A stretch of 36,966 bases of DNA from contig QIAH01000350.1 of the NCBI GenBank assembly GCA_003225465.1, positions 1-36,966 of the forward strand, written 5' to 3'. The notes below the pieces were generated by a model, which worked only from the letters and a program-made list of their open reading frames with translations, did not search any database and had not been told where the DNA came from. Shown one piece after another: positions 18,563 through 24,267 of the stretch. This DNA is from Acidobacteriota bacterium. GTDB lineage: Bacteria > Acidobacteriota > Terriglobia > Terriglobales > Acidobacteriaceae. Each line of letters starts with the position of its first letter. Position 1 is the stretch's first letter. The position numbers were made by a program, and so were the translations under genes.

Positions 18563-19789
18563 TTAAACTCCGGCGCGTTCGGAAAGCGCTGCTCCATCCT
18601 CGACGAACTTCTTGCCTTCGCAGCATGGTCCCGGCGGAATGGGGGCGCCGTGTGGACAGGTCCGAGGGTGCCCGAGGAACGAGCAGATTTTGTCCGTAGC
18701 GCCGGGCGAGAGGATGTGCTCAAACTTGCAGGCCTGCTGCTCGATTTCCGATTCGCTGTCCATGGCGAGGCTATCGGTGAAGAGGCGCTCAGCCAGGCGA
18801 TGGCGGCGGATGATGCTGCCCGCCCGGTTGCGTCCTCGCGGCGTGAGCGTGACCACCGCGCTCCCGTCCGTCGAGAAGATGCCTTCGGGCCGCATGGCAT
18901 CGTGGCAGGGGTTCACGAACGGCTTATGCGCGTGGGCTTCGGGCGGATGCGGTGTCGATGTCACTAGCCCGAGTTCCGCCATCTTTTCGACGGCGATGCT
19001 GACGGGCAAGGCGCCGTGCACGTCCATATGTTCGACCTCGGCCAACTCGCCGTGTTCTTCGAGCACCCATAATTCTTCGAGAATCTCATCGAACTGCTCC
19101 TCGTCGGCCATCGAGAAAACTTCCTGGGCGGCGATCTTGCCATGATGCAATTCAATGCGGCGGTCGGCGAGACGCGCGACCACCGGGTCGTGCGTCACCA
19201 TCACAATCGTGCGTCCCTGCTGATGGAATTCGCGCAACAGGCGCAGGACGATTTCTTCGTTCTGCGCGTCGAGGTTGCCGGTAGGCTCGTCGGCCAGGAT
19301 GATTTTCGGATCGTTAATGAGGGCGCGGGCGATGCAGACGCGCTGCTGCTCGCCTCCGGAAAGCTGCGACGGCACATGATGGCAACGATCTTTCAGGCCA
19401 ACCCGCTCCAGGGCTTCAAGAGCTTCTTTCTCATCGGTCATGCTGTGGAAGTATTGCGCGAGCATGACGTTTTCGACGGCGGTCAGGTAGGGGATGAGGT
19501 GAAATTGCTGGAACACGAAGCCGATCTTTTCTGCGCGCACGCGATTCAATTCAACCGCGGAAATGCTGGCCACGTTCTGGCCGTCGAGCCATATCTCGCC
19601 AGTGGTGGGCCGGTCGAGGCACCCGATCAGATTCACCAACGTGGATTTCCCGGAGCCTGACGGACCCATGATCGACACCCACTCTCCCGGTGCGACGGTA
19701 AGAGAAAAATCGTCCAGCGCCTTGATGCTGCCGCCGTTCTCCTCGGCCTTGGCCGGATACAGGCGACTGACGTTGATGAGCTTGATCAC
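18563..19789 (-). CDS. ABC transporter ATPase fused to a DtxR-type metalloregulator domain
   Basis: 408 residues, GTG start. Residues 1-222 are a complete LolD/MacB-class ATPase: Walker A GPSGSGKS (42-49), signature LSGGEQQR (143-150), Walker B IILADEP (163-169), switch His200. Residues 228-390 match a DtxR/IdeR protein: winged-helix start [29 protein letters not shown], wing [11 protein letters not shown], then [12 protein letters not shown] and [12 protein letters not shown]. By eye His330, Glu334, Cys354, Glu357 and His358 match DtxR metal ligands His79, Glu83, Cys102, Glu105 and His106; Met10 and His98 positions are Glu. A His/Cys-rich insert (about 278-305) splits the wing, and the tail has GHPRTCPHG and PGPCC. 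The ATPase half should energise the two upstream permeases. The start is 2 bases after the permease stop. The fusion is unusual, and its DNA-binding helix looks shortened. Confidence 0.9.
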
Positions 19790-19791
19790 CT

Positions 19792-20946
19792 TTACTCTCC
19801 CTTCAAGATGATAGCTGGTTGCACGCGACGCAGGAGCGACATAGGCACGATGGCGGAAAGCAGCGCAACCGCAATGCTTCCGGCGAGCACAATGGGCAGC
19901 ACGCTTAAGCGCGGTACCACGACCGCGTTGAAATTCACGCGGCCGATCCAGGCAGCGATCCCGATGCCGATAACGAATCCAAGCAACGCACCGACCGCGC
20001 CCAGAGCGGCTGCTTCTGCAGCGAAAAAGCCGCTGATCAGGCGTTCGGATGCGCCCAGAGCTTTCATGATCGCAAAATCGCGGCGCCGGTCAAAGACCCA
20101 TCCAGTCAAAGTGGCGAGCACACACAACGCCGCCGTCAGGATGATCAGGGTGGCTGCCGCGTAAAGGGTGGCCCGGGTTTTGCCGAGCACACGCGCTTCG
20201 CCTTCGACGATCTGCCGCACTGGCCGGACGTCTGCGTTCGGAAAAGTCTGGGCAAGACGATTCACGACGGCATTCAGTTCTTCAGACGAGCCGTTGGCGG
20301 CAACTTCGATGGTGGAGGGCTGGACGCCAGTCCACGCTGCGAAATCACTCATGGGCAAGTACACCCGGCTGTCCTCCGCGGCGCCGGTCTGCAGCGTGCC
20401 CGTGGGGGTCAGATGAACGGTGTGCCCCTGGAAGCTGAGATCGAACGGCTTGCGTTCGGGCGAGACTACCGGGAGGGCGCGCATGCCGACCAAAGCCTCG
20501 CCCGTAGCGGAAGGCCAGGCGCTTACCGACCACCAGCGATCGAGTCTCTGCACGCGCTCGAAGTCCGTGCCCGCCACCACGACGGATTGTCCAGCAGGGG
20601 TGCGCGCGACCACATAGGCAAACGGAACGGCCATGCCGCGACCCCCAAGCACGCTCTCCACTTTGCTGATGGCGTCAGGTGGAAGGAAAGCGCCATCTTT
20701 GCCCACGACCACCACGTTTGCACCGTAGCTGCGGAATTCTTTGCGGAGCTTGGCCTGCACGTCGACGTACAGATTCATCATCGCGGTGGCGACCGCCGCG
20801 GCTACGACCATGGCGAGCAATGCGGAAGCCGCGCGGCCCCGGCGCACCACGGCCGCGCGCAGCAGCATGCGTAAGAACATGGAGGCATGCGGGGCGGCGG
20901 CCCGGCGCTCGGCTACGCTTTGTGGAGTTCGCGGCACCGTGCTCAT
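19792..20946 (-). CDS. FtsX/MacB-type ABC permease of the iron operon (second)
   Basis: 384 residues. One N-terminal membrane segment (ASALLAMVVAAAVATAMM), a periplasmic domain of about 200 residues beginning LRKEFRSYGANVVVVGKDG, then three C-terminal segments with the FtsX motif RRRDFAIMKALGASERLI. FtsX-type permeases often act as mechanotransmitters rather than channels. The ATG overlaps the stop of the first permease gene (ATGA, 20943-20946). In context it matches Cj1662 of the Campylobacter FTR1/P19 iron system. The N-terminal 22 residues are polar, and the ATG for MFLRMLL (codon 23) is an alternative start. Confidence 0.85.
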   Translation of the reverse strand: MSTVPRTPQSVAERRAAAPHASMFLRMLLRAAVVRRGRAASALLAMVVAAAVATAMMNLYVDVQAKLRKEFRSYGANVVVVGKDGAFLPPDAISKVESVLGGRGMAVPFAYVVARTPAGQSVVVAGTDFERVQRLDRWWSVSAWPSATGEALVGMRALPVVSPERKPFDLSFQGHTVHLTPTGTLQTGAAEDSRVYLPMSDFAAWTGVQPSTIEVAANGSSEELNAVVNRLAQTFPNADVRPVRQIVEGEARVLGKTRATLYAAATLIILTAALCVLATLTGWVFDRRRDFAIMKALGASERLISGFFAAEAAALGAVGALLGFVIGIGIAAWIGRVNFNAVVVPRLSVLPIVLAGSIAVALLSAIVPMSLLRRVQPAIILKGE

Positions 20947-22202
20947 GCGTCGCCTCGAAGCGCAAAGACCGGATCAAACTGCACGGCGCGGCGGATCGCG
21001 GCGGCGCTGCCCGCAAAAGTCACGATCACCGCAATGGCCATGATCACCGGAAACAGCACCGGCTGAATCGTGATCTGAGAATCGAAAATCGAGCGACCGA
21101 TGCGATGCGCCAGCCACGACCCCGCAAAGAAGCCGACCAGTCCGCCCAATAACGCCAGCAACGTGCTTTCGGCAAAGAACAACGCCGCGACGGCGACGTT
21201 TCCCGCGCCCAGGGCTTTCATGAGGCCAACTTCACGGCGCCGCTCGAAAATAGCCGTTGCCATCGCCGCCGAAACCGCCAAGGCCGAGGCGAACAGCGCC
21301 GCCAGCGTGATCAGCAACATCAGTCCCTGGATGCGCGATAGCACCGTGCCTTCATTCTGTGCAACCTGCCGAATCTGTTCGGCGTGCGAATGGGGAATCG
21401 CTTCCTGCAACTGGTAAGCGATGGATTGCGCGTACGGGGAGCAGTACCAGCGATCCCAGACTTCGCCGCTCATGCTCTTCGGATCGCGGCGCGCGAGGGC
21501 GTCTTCCGGCTTGGTCAGCGCACTGACGTACACCCTGCGCACGGCGTCCGGCTTGCCCAGAATTTGCTGCGCGACGTGCAGGGGAGCAACCACCTGCTCG
21601 TCCTCTGCTCCACCGGTCGAGAGTACTCCAGCAACGTGATGAGCCTGACCGGCAATCTCGACAGTGTCTCCGGCCTGCTCATTGAGCTTGCGCGCAAGGT
21701 GTTCGCCCAATAACACGTCTTCGGAATCATCGGCCGGCCAGGAACCCTGGATTCTCCACCAGGGATGCGTGTTGCGCACGCCGGTCGTGAACTGATCCTT
21801 GCCGAAGTTAAGTTTCTTCGCGAAATAGGTGCCGACGAGCGTCGTTTGCTGGCCGGAGCTGCCGAGCGAAACATTCACGGGCAGCATCGGGGAGAATCCA
21901 AGAATGTTGTTCCGCCAGAAAGTGCCTTTGATTTTCGGCAGGTCGGCTTCGTTCAGGAAATTGCCATCACTGGGCGGCTTGAGGTTCACGCCGCCGATTT
22001 CGACGTCAAGCGTGTCTTCCTGCGGGCTGACCAGCAGGTTGGCGCCGTAGCTGCGCAGCTCACGATTGATTTTGTCCCCAATGTCAGTGGCCACGGCGAT
22101 CATCGCGGTCGCAATGGCGACACCCAAGGTGATAGCGATGCCGGCCAGCAGTTTGCGCCGCTTCTGCCGACGAAACGATTCATAGAGGAGACGGGCGAAC
22201 AT
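20943..22202 (-). CDS. FtsX/MacB-type ABC permease of the iron operon (first)
   Basis: 419 residues. An N-terminal membrane segment after RRQKRRKLLAGIAITLGVAI, a MacB-like periplasmic domain beginning LRSYGANLLVSPQ, and three C-terminal membrane segments with RRREVGLMKALGAGN. A WYCSPYAQSIAYQLQEAIP stretch lies before the second membrane segment; its Cys could be functional, since partner systems in other bacteria contain thioredoxins. It starts 3 bases after the FTR1 stop. Both permeases share the SYGAN motif, so they likely arose by duplication and work as a heterodimer with the downstream ATPase. Confidence 0.87.
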   Translation of the reverse strand: MFARLLYESFRRQKRRKLLAGIAITLGVAIATAMIAVATDIGDKINRELRSYGANLLVSPQEDTLDVEIGGVNLKPPSDGNFLNEADLPKIKGTFWRNNILGFSPMLPVNVSLGSSGQQTTLVGTYFAKKLNFGKDQFTTGVRNTHPWWRIQGSWPADDSEDVLLGEHLARKLNEQAGDTVEIAGQAHHVAGVLSTGGAEDEQVVAPLHVAQQILGKPDAVRRVYVSALTKPEDALARRDPKSMSGEVWDRWYCSPYAQSIAYQLQEAIPHSHAEQIRQVAQNEGTVLSRIQGLMLLITLAALFASALAVSAAMATAIFERRREVGLMKALGAGNVAVAALFFAESTLLALLGGLVGFFAGSWLAHRIGRSIFDSQITIQPVLFPVIMAIAVIVTFAGSAAAIRRAVQFDPVFALRGDA

Positions 22203-22205
22203 GAG

Positions 22206-23453
22206 CTATTTCTGGAAAAAGCGGGTCTGGGCCGCGACGTCGGCTTCCTTGATGATCACCGCGTCCGCGGTCGTTTCCGCCTTCAGCGGGATGGGATTGC
22301 AGCCGCCTGGCGTGCCGACCGATTGAGGATTAATGGGCGCGGCGCAGTTCTTGCAGACCACTCCGCTGGTCCCTTTGTAAAAACCCACGGAACCGCAGAT
22401 CTCGCACGCATCGAGCACGGTCGCTATCTTGCCGTCGGGCTTCTGATAAAGCCAGAAGCGCACGTCCACGCCGTTTTCCGCGGCCTGGTAGAAGTGGATG
22501 TCGCCGTCGGAAACCTGATTGAGTGGGATGGAAGCCTGGCCATTCACGAACGCAATCTCGGCCGCCTTCTGGGGCGCGCTCAGACTCTTGGCGTAGATGA
22601 ATTCCGCCGTGACCAGCATGATGAACAGGAACGAGCTGACGTAAACCGAACCCATCCACAGGCGCTCGCGGCGCGCGCTCCAGACAGCCTTGCGACGCTC
22701 GGCCGGGGTCGTGGGCGCGGGCGCGGGTTGGCGCGACTTCACTTCGAAAAGCACCATCAGCGCGGCCAGCGCGAAGATCGTGATGAAGAAGAACACGTCG
22801 TTGCGAACGATCGGGCCGATCAGCGCCATTTCCTGCTTGGAAGAGGGAAGTACGCCATTCTCCGAAAGTTCATGCAGGCCGCTGATGATCAACTGCGCGG
22901 CCACGAACCACAGGATTACGGTGGTCACACGGAAAAATTTCTGCAGGTTGATGCGCACGCTCCCCTTCACGAACATCACGCCGAAAGCGATCGCGGCGAC
23001 CACTCCCAGCAGGGTACCCAGGAAGCCCAGGAGTTCGGTCGAGTTCAGGGTGACCGCAGAGAGGATCAGCACCGTCTCCACACCCTCTCTCATGACCATC
23101 AGGAAGACAAAAAGGAACACTCCAATGCGGGAGCTTTGGCTGGCCAGGGATTCAAGTTTGCCTTCAATTTCTCCCTTCATCTTCTTGCCAGTGCGCATCA
23201 TGAAGATGATCATGGTGATGACGAAGAAGGCCGCCGCCAGCATGACCCAGCCCTCAACGACGTCTTCGTTGAGGTGCAAACGCGAGACCAGGACGGCAAC
23301 GCCAATGCTGCCCACGAACGCCGCCCCCAGGGCTGCAAAGACGGATTTCCGGAGGTCGCTGCGGCCGATCTTGGTCAGGTAGGCGAGGGTAATGCCTACG
23401 ATCAGGGCCGCTTCGACCCCCTCGCGGAGCGTGACTATGAAGGCCTGCAGCAT
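22206..23453 (-). CDS. FTR1-family iron permease with C-terminal DUF2318-type domain
   Basis: 415 residues. The first part is an FTR1/EfeU permease with two REGVE iron-handling motifs (residues 10-14 and 122-126) in membrane helices and seven or so membrane segments. After a further membrane helix (about 275-295) comes a periplasmic domain (about 300-415) with CEIC (350, 353), CKNC (367, 370) and GGCNPIPL (Cys385). This is the pattern of DUF2318 proteins, which may bind Fe-S or haem-like cofactors or metal. In Campylobacter these are two genes (Cj1658 and Cj1660); here they are one. Role: high-affinity iron uptake across the inner membrane. First gene of the operon, preceded by a Fur-like operator. 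Confidence 0.92.
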   Translation of the reverse strand: MLQAFIVTLREGVEAALIVGITLAYLTKIGRSDLRKSVFAALGAAFVGSIGVAVLVSRLHLNEDVVEGWVMLAAAFFVITMIIFMMRTGKKMKGEIEGKLESLASQSSRIGVFLFVFLMVMREGVETVLILSAVTLNSTELLGFLGTLLGVVAAIAFGVMFVKGSVRINLQKFFRVTTVILWFVAAQLIISGLHELSENGVLPSSKQEMALIGPIVRNDVFFFITIFALAALMVLFEVKSRQPAPAPTTPAERRKAVWSARRERLWMGSVYVSSFLFIMLVTAEFIYAKSLSAPQKAAEIAFVNGQASIPLNQVSDGDIHFYQAAENGVDVRFWLYQKPDGKIATVLDACEICGSVGFYKGTSGVVCKNCAAPINPQSVGTPGGCNPIPLKAETTADAVIIKEADVAAQTRFFQK

Positions 23454-23476
23454 AACTAGAAGTGCACCTTAGATTT

Positions 23477-23497
23477 TGAAAATGAATTTCAATTTCA
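23477..23497 (-). promoter_or_regulatory. Fur-box-like operator upstream of the FTR1 operon
   Basis: Two overlapping 7-1-7 palindromes offset by 6 bases: TGAAAATGAATTTCA (23477-23491) and TGAATTTCAATTTCA (23483-23497), each 6 of 7 symmetric. Bases 23478-23496 match the 19-base Fur consensus at 13 positions by my count. It lies 24-44 bases before the FTR1 ATG, in an AT-rich island. Iron-dependent repression is the natural reading. A DtxR-type site would look different. Confidence 0.6.
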
Positions 23498-23580
23498 ACT
23501 TTATAAGGATAGCTGTTTGCCGCGGGATGCGTCAACGCGTGAAATCACCCGCGCACGTGATCTCGATCACACAGAGGGGG

Positions 23581-24267
23581 TTACAGGCGCCGCAGAAAAC
23601 GCTGCGCCGCTTCCAGTTGTGGAAACACCTTCTCTTCGGCCCGGAATTCCGCGGAGTGAACGCAGCGTCGGCTGCCCTTCAGCTTCACCGGATGCCTCAG
23701 GTGGAGCATCTCGTGATAGACGATGTACTCGACGGCGTAGCGGGGAACGGCAGGATGGTCGAAGATGCGGCTGACGACAATCGCGTTGTGGGCTGGATCG
23801 TAGTGGCCGAGCAGATTGCGGGCCCGACCCTGGCTCCAGCTCATCTGCGGGCGCGCCTGCATGCCTCCAAAAAAGCGCAGGTTCAAATCTTCAAAGATCG
23901 CTTCGAGATCATAGACGCGTCCCTGTGCTGAGGCGATTCGCTTGCGCCCGCGCACCTGGCGCACGAGATGCGCCTTGTGCCGGATTTCATGGCTGTGCAC
24001 ATAGCGGCGGTAGCGAGTGGCGTGTGAGCGCTCAATGGGCTTACGGTACATCTTCGCCAGCAAAATATGAGCGAGGGCCCGCAGCACAGGCTCCGGGGCA
24101 CCTTCGAGCAGATCAGAGAGGCGCACGTGCAGTTTTCCTTCGCGCAGACGGATCGTGTTATTCACGTTGGCAAAGGCAAAGAATTCAACGGTGAGCGGGG
24201 GCAGGGAGGAGCCGGGGCGCAGTTCGCGGAAACTCTGCTGGAAGATTGCGACAATCCCGTCTCTCAC
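23581..24267 (-). CDS. SprT/YgjP-like zinc metalloprotease
   Basis: 228 residues, GTG start, no signal peptide. The metal site is YHEMLHLRHPV (HExxH near residue 178) with a likely third ligand in CVHSAEFRAEE. The preceding YDPAHNAIVVSRIFDHPAVP and the Trp in MSWSQGRARNLLG fit SprT-like or YgjP/WLM-type metallopeptidases. The N-terminal half (VNNTIRLREGKLHVRL ... LAHILLAKMYRKP) is a helical region I cannot name. A role in cleaving DNA-protein crosslinks or in general proteolysis is possible from the family, unproved here. It lies 127 bases upstream of FTR1 on the same strand. Confidence 0.8.
   Translation of the reverse strand: MRDGIVAIFQQSFRELRPGSSLPPLTVEFFAFANVNNTIRLREGKLHVRLSDLLEGAPEPVLRALAHILLAKMYRKPIERSHATRYRRYVHSHEIRHKAHLVRQVRGRKRIASAQGRVYDLEAIFEDLNLRFFGGMQARPQMSWSQGRARNLLGHYDPAHNAIVVSRIFDHPAVPRYAVEYIVYHEMLHLRHPVKLKGSRRCVHSAEFRAEEKVFPQLEAAQRFLRRL

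Follow-up and report, generated by a model that had tools for sequence, protein, structure and literature searches.

A fused FTR1-DUF2318 permease with a predicted Rieske-like domain in a putative Fet-type iron-uptake operon of a soil acidobacterium

Why would an iron permease end in a cysteine-rich domain? The question is raised by an open reading frame (ORF) of 415 aa on the minus strand (22206..23453) of the window, by which we mean the whole stretch of 36,966 nucleotides analysed here, from a soil acidobacterium. An earlier note read positions 22206-22600, which correspond to residues 285-415 of the product, as a DUF2318-type domain fused to an iron permease, and suggested that its cysteines could bind an iron-sulphur or haem cofactor and couple iron oxidation or reduction to uptake. 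Such coupling of redox chemistry to iron uptake is a hypothesis that has already been published.

Both domains are indeed found in this one ORF. Residues 1-200 match FTR1 (PF03239) with 128.2 bits against a gathering score of 25.3, and residues 314-413 match FtrD-like (PF10080, DUF2318) with 98.9 bits against 26.3; in a Pfam search of the genome each family occurs a single time. The FTR1 channel part (residues 1-240; 22734..23453, minus strand), delimited by Pfam and an AlphaFold2 model and comprising predicted helices TM1-TM7, has two REGxE motifs, both REGVE, at residues 10-14 and 122-126 in predicted helices. Two REGxE motifs within membrane helices are the mark of the FTR1 family, and by family membership this part is a predicted iron permease. 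An EfeU-type system was considered and rejected, as the fused permease scores 154.2 bits on the NCBIfam EfeU equivalog NF041756, below its curated cut-off of 255.

The five cysteines, the only ones in the protein, lie just where they had been described, in the pairs C350-E-I-C353 (22395..22406, minus strand) and C367-K-N-C370 (22344..22355, minus strand), which are separated by 13 residues, and in the loop GGC385NPIPL (residues 383-390; 22284..22307, minus strand). Their arrangement, C350xxC353-x13-C367xxC370-x14-C385, agrees with the pattern CxxC-x13-CxxC-x14,15-C that passages of PMC6083913 already give for Campylobacter FetA; the same passages propose an iron-sulphur site in Campylobacter jejuni 1651, a membrane protein with a periplasmic DUF2318 domain. 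The DUF2318 domain and its association with FTR1 are thus already known. Of the 297 genomes of the phylum that were scanned, 53 contain PF10080; we took 40 of the 53 matches outside the window, and together with the window 40 DUF2318 ORFs were recognised, 29 of which (window included) are fusions with FTR1. The five-cysteine spacing is present in all 29. A scan of named genomes with the fusion itself as the query, which shows conservation and not how often DUF2318 is fused, returned 80 loci, all acidobacterial, and both the spacing and the fusion are kept in 80/80, the two REGxE motifs being present in 77 (of the remaining three, two are ORFs that are split or cut). The five cysteine columns are also invariant in an alignment of 25 sequences that includes unfused DUF2318 proteins and FetA of an E. 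coli plasmid. These sequence comparisons confirm that neither the motif nor the fusion is due to chance. Two fusion proteins (locus L043, 7773-9269; locus L046, 3214-4638) have a further C-terminal extension containing cysteines, which in L043 is a YHS domain like that of Campylobacter FetA. Loci L048-L052 hold another DUF2318 system, in which short proteins with one N-terminal helix-like stretch stand beside a single FtsX-type permease and an ATPase, with no FTR1 match within the stretch.

On which side of the membrane would the cysteines lie? Eight long helices precede the DUF2318 domain in the AlphaFold2 model, the last of which is the additional membrane helix that had been claimed (residues about 266-290, or 250-290 in the AlphaFold2 model; 22584..22658, minus strand). 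Averaged over 22 diverse proteins, the number of K+R residues is 2.5, 5.1, 2.1 and 9.2 in loops 1-2, 3-4, 5-6 and 7-8, which would be cytoplasmic, and 0.7, 0.1 and 2.5 in the outer loops 2-3, 4-5 and 6-7. Since these charges obey the positive-inside rule, the N-terminus and the DUF2318 domain are predicted to lie outside the cytoplasm. The periplasmic position of the cysteines put forward in the earlier note is therefore borne out by the predicted helices and the charge pattern, and the topology analysis did not place them in the cytoplasm.

The model further suggests what kind of domain holds them. Confidence in the whole protein is fair (mean pLDDT 70.5, pTM 0.51), and the DUF2318 part (residues 305-413; 22215..22541, minus strand) is the best-modelled region, with a block-mean pLDDT of about 75-90. 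Foldseek matches the model first to Rieske oxygenases, through their Rieske domains (E 0.16, best probability 0.97); these account for 41 of 50 among the matches listed, as counted by eye, with no Rieske match at E 0.001 or better. The upper VIA matches are membrane transporters aligned to the FTR1 part, which we read as a common helical arrangement and not as kinship; residues 305-413 align to residues 2-109 of the Rieske ferredoxin 4p1b chain H (Z 8.2, rmsd 3.3, 99 residues). When a profile of 38 DUF2318 domains was compared with one of 27 Rieske domains from related genomes, the two were colinear around both cysteine loops with a score of 28.1 (P 2.1e-4), against at most 19.8 in 60 column shuffles, at most 18.8 in 60 cysteine-fixed shuffles and 18.1 for the reversed profile. 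Rubredoxin, found in 0/21 relatives, was unusable as a comparison family. Sequence searches against solved structures gave 0 matches for the full fused protein and weak ones for the DUF2318 profile (best E 0.13, zinc-ribbon-like and others, none of them Rieske), and a Pfam scan of 25 DUF2318 members gave no Rieske (PF00355) match. Because ordinary HMM searches miss Rieske, the case rests on the predicted model and one shuffled profile-profile test, and on these we take the domain to be probably Rieske-like, cysteine standing at the position of each ligand histidine. The Rieske ligand motif CxH...CxxH is absent and CxxC...CxxC stands in all 25 aligned sequences; judged by this motif, DUF2318 is not classed as a Rieske protein.

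An all-cysteine iron or iron-sulphur centre appears to be the likeliest reading of the modelled domain, because five invariant cysteines, a Rieske-like frame and an adjoining iron channel occur together. The FtrD-like family name implies a bound iron-sulphur centre. Of the two cofactors in the original suggestion, an iron-sulphur or iron centre is favoured indirectly, by the predicted fold, the profile match and the need for the DUF2318 protein at low iron in a published system (passages of PMC10783030). For haem, the other, the covalent form (haem c) is rejected, as no His follows either CxxC and the domain therefore lacks CxxCH. Rieske clusters are normally inserted ahead of Tat export, and Rieske proteins use Tat; that a loose Tat-like RRx(hydrophobic)2 pattern precedes helix 8, inside a very basic linker, in only 61 of the 109 fusion proteins is a possible point against an exported cluster in DUF2318.

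Two other roles for the cysteines deserve consideration, both of which would dispense with such a centre. The cysteines might form two dithiol/disulphide pairs, relaying reducing power to iron or keeping partner proteins reduced, with the remainder of our reading, sensor and operon, unchanged. Both pairs are CxxC, E. coli clusters contain TlpA-type proteins, and a dithiol role has been suggested for FetA of Campylobacter, where two thioredoxins, FetE and FetF, are encoded in the same cluster (passages of PMC10783030). However, a homologue of the E. coli TlpA is absent from 119 of the 120 acidobacterial loci (the count refers to the loci only), and the Rieske-like arrangement and the fifth invariant cysteine would suit a single centre better, so we regard the dithiol role as unlikely. 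Alternatively, the four CxxC cysteines might bind structural zinc with no redox role, the domain shaping the channel mouth or binding the ABC permeases. Zinc ribbons and similar folds do appear among the weak sequence-search matches of the domain, but such matches are expected of any CxxC..CxxC protein; in addition, DUF2318 is tied to iron-uptake clusters, both in passages of PMC6083913 and by synteny here, and it has a fifth invariant cysteine. Structural zinc thus seems to us distinctly improbable.

The genes that follow the permease make it part of a larger system. Pfam matches and synteny identify an FetB-like ABC permease B (MacB_PCD and FtsX; 20943..22202, minus strand) and an FetC-like ABC permease C (FtsX; 19792..20946, minus strand), whose gene overlaps that of permease B by 4 bases, followed by an ATPase gene; the order fused permease, permease B, permease C and ATPase recurs in most loci that are long enough to judge. 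FTR1, a DUF2318 membrane protein and FetBCD-type ABC genes, the combination that marks Fet systems, are found together, and gene content marks the operon as Fet-type but compact: beside the fused permease it encodes two permeases of FtsX type and an ABC ATPase, and no P19. P19/FetP (PF10634) has no match in the genome, which is 95% complete. Among the 120 loci, a P19 homologue occurs in one, L053, which is also the one with separate FTR1 and FetA-like genes, and 118 lack any homologue of the thioredoxin, FMN protein or P19 of the E. coli cluster. Passages of PMC10783030 ascribe eight predicted helices, DUF2318 and YHS to C. jejuni FetA, report that growth at low iron suffers when fetA, B, C or D is deleted, and state that what FetA/DUF2318 and the FetBCD ABC transporter do biochemically is unknown. 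In FetA proteins with a separate FTR1 (L053, 7942-9189; L154, 3964-5331), the eight-helix membrane part weakly matches a profile of FTR1 plus TM8: P is 1.2e-5 for the L053 FetA-like protein and 3e-4 for E. coli FetA, against 0.13 and 0.23 for reversed copies and 0.18-0.56 for five shuffled copies, and the L053 match drops to P 0.018 without the linker and TM8. It is suggestive, though we do not claim it, that the membrane part of FetA might be a decayed FTR1. Upstream of the permease lies a gene for an SprT/YgjP-like metallopeptidase (window 23581-24267), a homologue of which is on the same strand in 52 of the 80 named loci and less than 400 bp from the permease in 29.

The ATPase itself suggests how such a system might respond to iron. 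The 408-aa ORF (18563-19789, minus strand) consists of an FetD-like ABC ATPase part recognised by Pfam and fold (residues 1-226; 19112..19789, minus strand) fused to a DtxR-type iron-sensor part (residues 228-391; 18617..19108, minus strand). Residues 316-385 match Fe_dep_repr_C (PF02742) with 87.7 bits against 27, phmmer relates the sensor part to IdeR with E 1.1e-15, and in VIA its predicted model aligns with residues 3-140 of DtxR 1g3y (Z 17.6, rmsd 2.0, 133 residues). The sensor domain is present on 75 of the 86 complete ATPases of fusion loci (21/27 in the first set, window included, and 54/59 in the named set, nine ATPases cut by contig ends being excluded), absent from the other 11, and found in 0/6 complete ATPases of other DUF2318 loci. 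The primary metal ligands of the DtxR family, Met10/Asp, Cys102, Glu105 and His106, have counterparts here: CxxEH, with the C, E and H of the primary site, is retained in 74 of the 75 ATPase-DtxR proteins, and the position of Met10 is E, D or H in 74/75. His79 is retained in 69 and substituted in five, and the position of His98 is Glu in 69/75. A cysteine-rich end of the sensor part (CPHGxxIPxGxCC, 13 residues; 18620..18658, minus strand) is conserved in 74 of the 75 complete ATPase-DtxR ORFs. In a tree of the ATPase domain with 54 rows, 10 of the 11 sensor-less rows from fusion loci, including Edaphobacter aggregans, form one clade (support 99/93), and the sensor label changes 4 times, against 15.4 with shuffled labels. 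The fusion of ATPase and DtxR is therefore old, and loss of the sensor in the sensor-less clade is the simplest reading of the tree. Substrate-sensing C-terminal domains exist in other ABC importers, such as MetNI, and by analogy we infer that the sensor acts on the ATPase. Residues 281-296 of the window's ATPase-DtxR protein are a His/Cys-rich insertion, HxxxxHxHKxxxNxCH, which is near-invariant in 46 Terriglobales ATPase-DtxR proteins and absent from the sensor parts of other families.

If the sensor acts on the ATPase, what controls the operon? A perfect palindrome, TTGAAATTGAAATTCATTTTCAA as read on the minus strand, occupies 23476..23498, 22 bp ahead of the permease start, and is a predicted Fur-type operator; no such palindrome arose in 100 shuffles. 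Its pattern was drawn by eye from the window and its relatives and scored afterwards. The genome has six sites with at most three mismatches, against 0 for a backward control, and one of them stands some 100 bp in front of a fur gene. The palindrome is recorded at 1501-1521 in each of L189, L190 and L191, and by eye no obvious iron gene stands beside two other sites. With at most four mismatches in 23, 68 of the 108 upstream regions contain the palindrome; among 1080 control stretches, taken from the same loci so that some may overlap sites, 16 do. It is missing from the other 40 upstream regions, including 10 of the 11 loci without the sensor part. The Fur consensus has at least 14/19 matches in 50/108 upstream regions, but this generic consensus alone is not decisive, because 4 of 200 scrambled palindromes do equally well on the mean. 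Taken together, the operon is probably repressed by Fur at plentiful iron, as predicted from these sites. One could also suppose that the DtxR part is still a DNA-binding repressor, the ATPase doubling as an iron-dependent transcription factor of its own operon, given that its predicted fold spans the DNA-binding part of DtxR and that the metal ligands are mostly retained. Against this, an IdeR/DtxR-type box with at least 14/19 matches occurs in 0/108 upstream regions (the mean is no better than in shuffles), the second helix of the DNA-binding motif is unformed in the model despite the overall match, and the base-contacting Gln43 of DtxR aligns, by eye, to Ile265, so that the DNA-binding helices look degraded. 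Because a Fur-type palindrome stands upstream and an IdeR/DtxR-type box does not, the DtxR part is probably not the repressor of the operon, and we consider such a dual role highly doubtful.

We therefore lean, with modest confidence, toward an iron importer under Fur control that is assisted by redox chemistry, carries a Rieske-like all-cysteine centre and has an ATPase able to sense iron in the cytoplasm. Domain content, the fusion, synteny, conservation of the cysteines and metal ligands, predicted topology and folds, and the palindrome were computed, and from them we infer the cofactor, the direction of electron flow, the inhibition of the ATPase by iron and the binding of Fur. The FTR1 part would move iron across the inner membrane by means of its two REGxE motifs, and the eighth helix would position DUF2318 at the periplasmic mouth. 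There, C350, C353, C367 and C370 may hold one metal centre, either a [2Fe-2S] cluster or a single iron, with C385 in what is, in Rieske proteins, the loop over the centre, and the domain may pass electrons to or from the iron entering FTR1. The two FtsX-type permeases and the ABC ATPase, as a putative counterpart of FetBCD, would give energy or mechanical work to the iron-entry step, the DtxR-type domain would most likely bind cytoplasmic Fe2+ and throttle the ATPase, and Fur would repress the whole operon when iron is plentiful. It would be tempting to go further and see here an importer, encoded in one operon, with sensing and gating at the level of the proteins: an FTR1 channel that bears an electron gate of all-cysteine Rieske type on its outer side, and inside the cell an ABC ATPase whose DtxR sensor stops the pump once cytoplasmic Fe2+ suffices. 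This is a tentative idea that we hold to be possible; if it were true, the sensor would show the fold of a transcription factor converted into a brake on a transporter, and DUF2318 would be a four-cysteine branch of the Rieske superfamily.

As the basic system is known, and the idea of a five-cysteine metal site by FTR1 has been published in outline, the novelty lies in a variant of it: the fused permease without P19, the prediction that DUF2318 is Rieske-like, and the fusion of ATPase and DtxR. The word "fusion" is used 0 times in main-text passages of PMC6083913 and PMC10783030, and in the open-access literature we found no description of an ABC ATPase-DtxR fusion or of a likeness between DUF2318 and Rieske. 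The Rieske-like prediction points to the expected seat of a cofactor and to the measurements worth making. The ATPase-DtxR fusion is a direct hint that the ABC part may respond to cytoplasmic iron, and the natural fusion of FTR1 with DUF2318 allows the two to be studied jointly in one polypeptide, without P19.

How does this operon compare with known systems? The closest likeness is to FetMP-FetABCDEF of Campylobacter jejuni (Cj1658-1663 region; CJJ81176_1649-1656), in which, according to passages of PMC6083913 and PMC10783030, FTR1, a DUF2318 protein with CxxC-x13-CxxC-x14,15-C, two ABC permeases and an ATPase are encoded in one cluster. Here, however, FTR1 and DUF2318 form one chain with intact REGxE motifs, the operon has neither P19, which is missing genome-wide, nor the thioredoxins FetE/FetF, and the ATPase bears a DtxR-type domain. 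FetMP-Fls of Salmonella and E. coli plasmids shares FTR1, a membrane DUF2318 protein, two permeases and an ATPase, and passages of PMC7285068 report that the cluster on a Salmonella plasmid is required for growth at low iron; it differs in that FTR1 and DUF2318 are separate, P19 and TlpA are present, and the 231-aa ATPase has no sensor part. With FTR1/EfeU permeases our protein has in common the FTR1 domain, two REGxE motifs and seven channel helices, whereas the eighth helix and DUF2318 are additions and its score is far under the EfeU equivalog cut-off. The Rieske ferredoxin T4moC (4p1b chain H) resembles residues 305-413 in predicted fold and in the colinear profile match, although DUF2318 has CxxC/CxxC in place of CxH/CxxH, a fifth cysteine and no Pfam Rieske match. 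Finally, unlike DtxR/IdeR, the sensor part is fused to an ABC ATPase, has a helix-turn-helix that looks degraded and mostly carries Glu at the position of His98, while it shares with them the metal-binding and dimerisation region and the C, E and H of the primary site.
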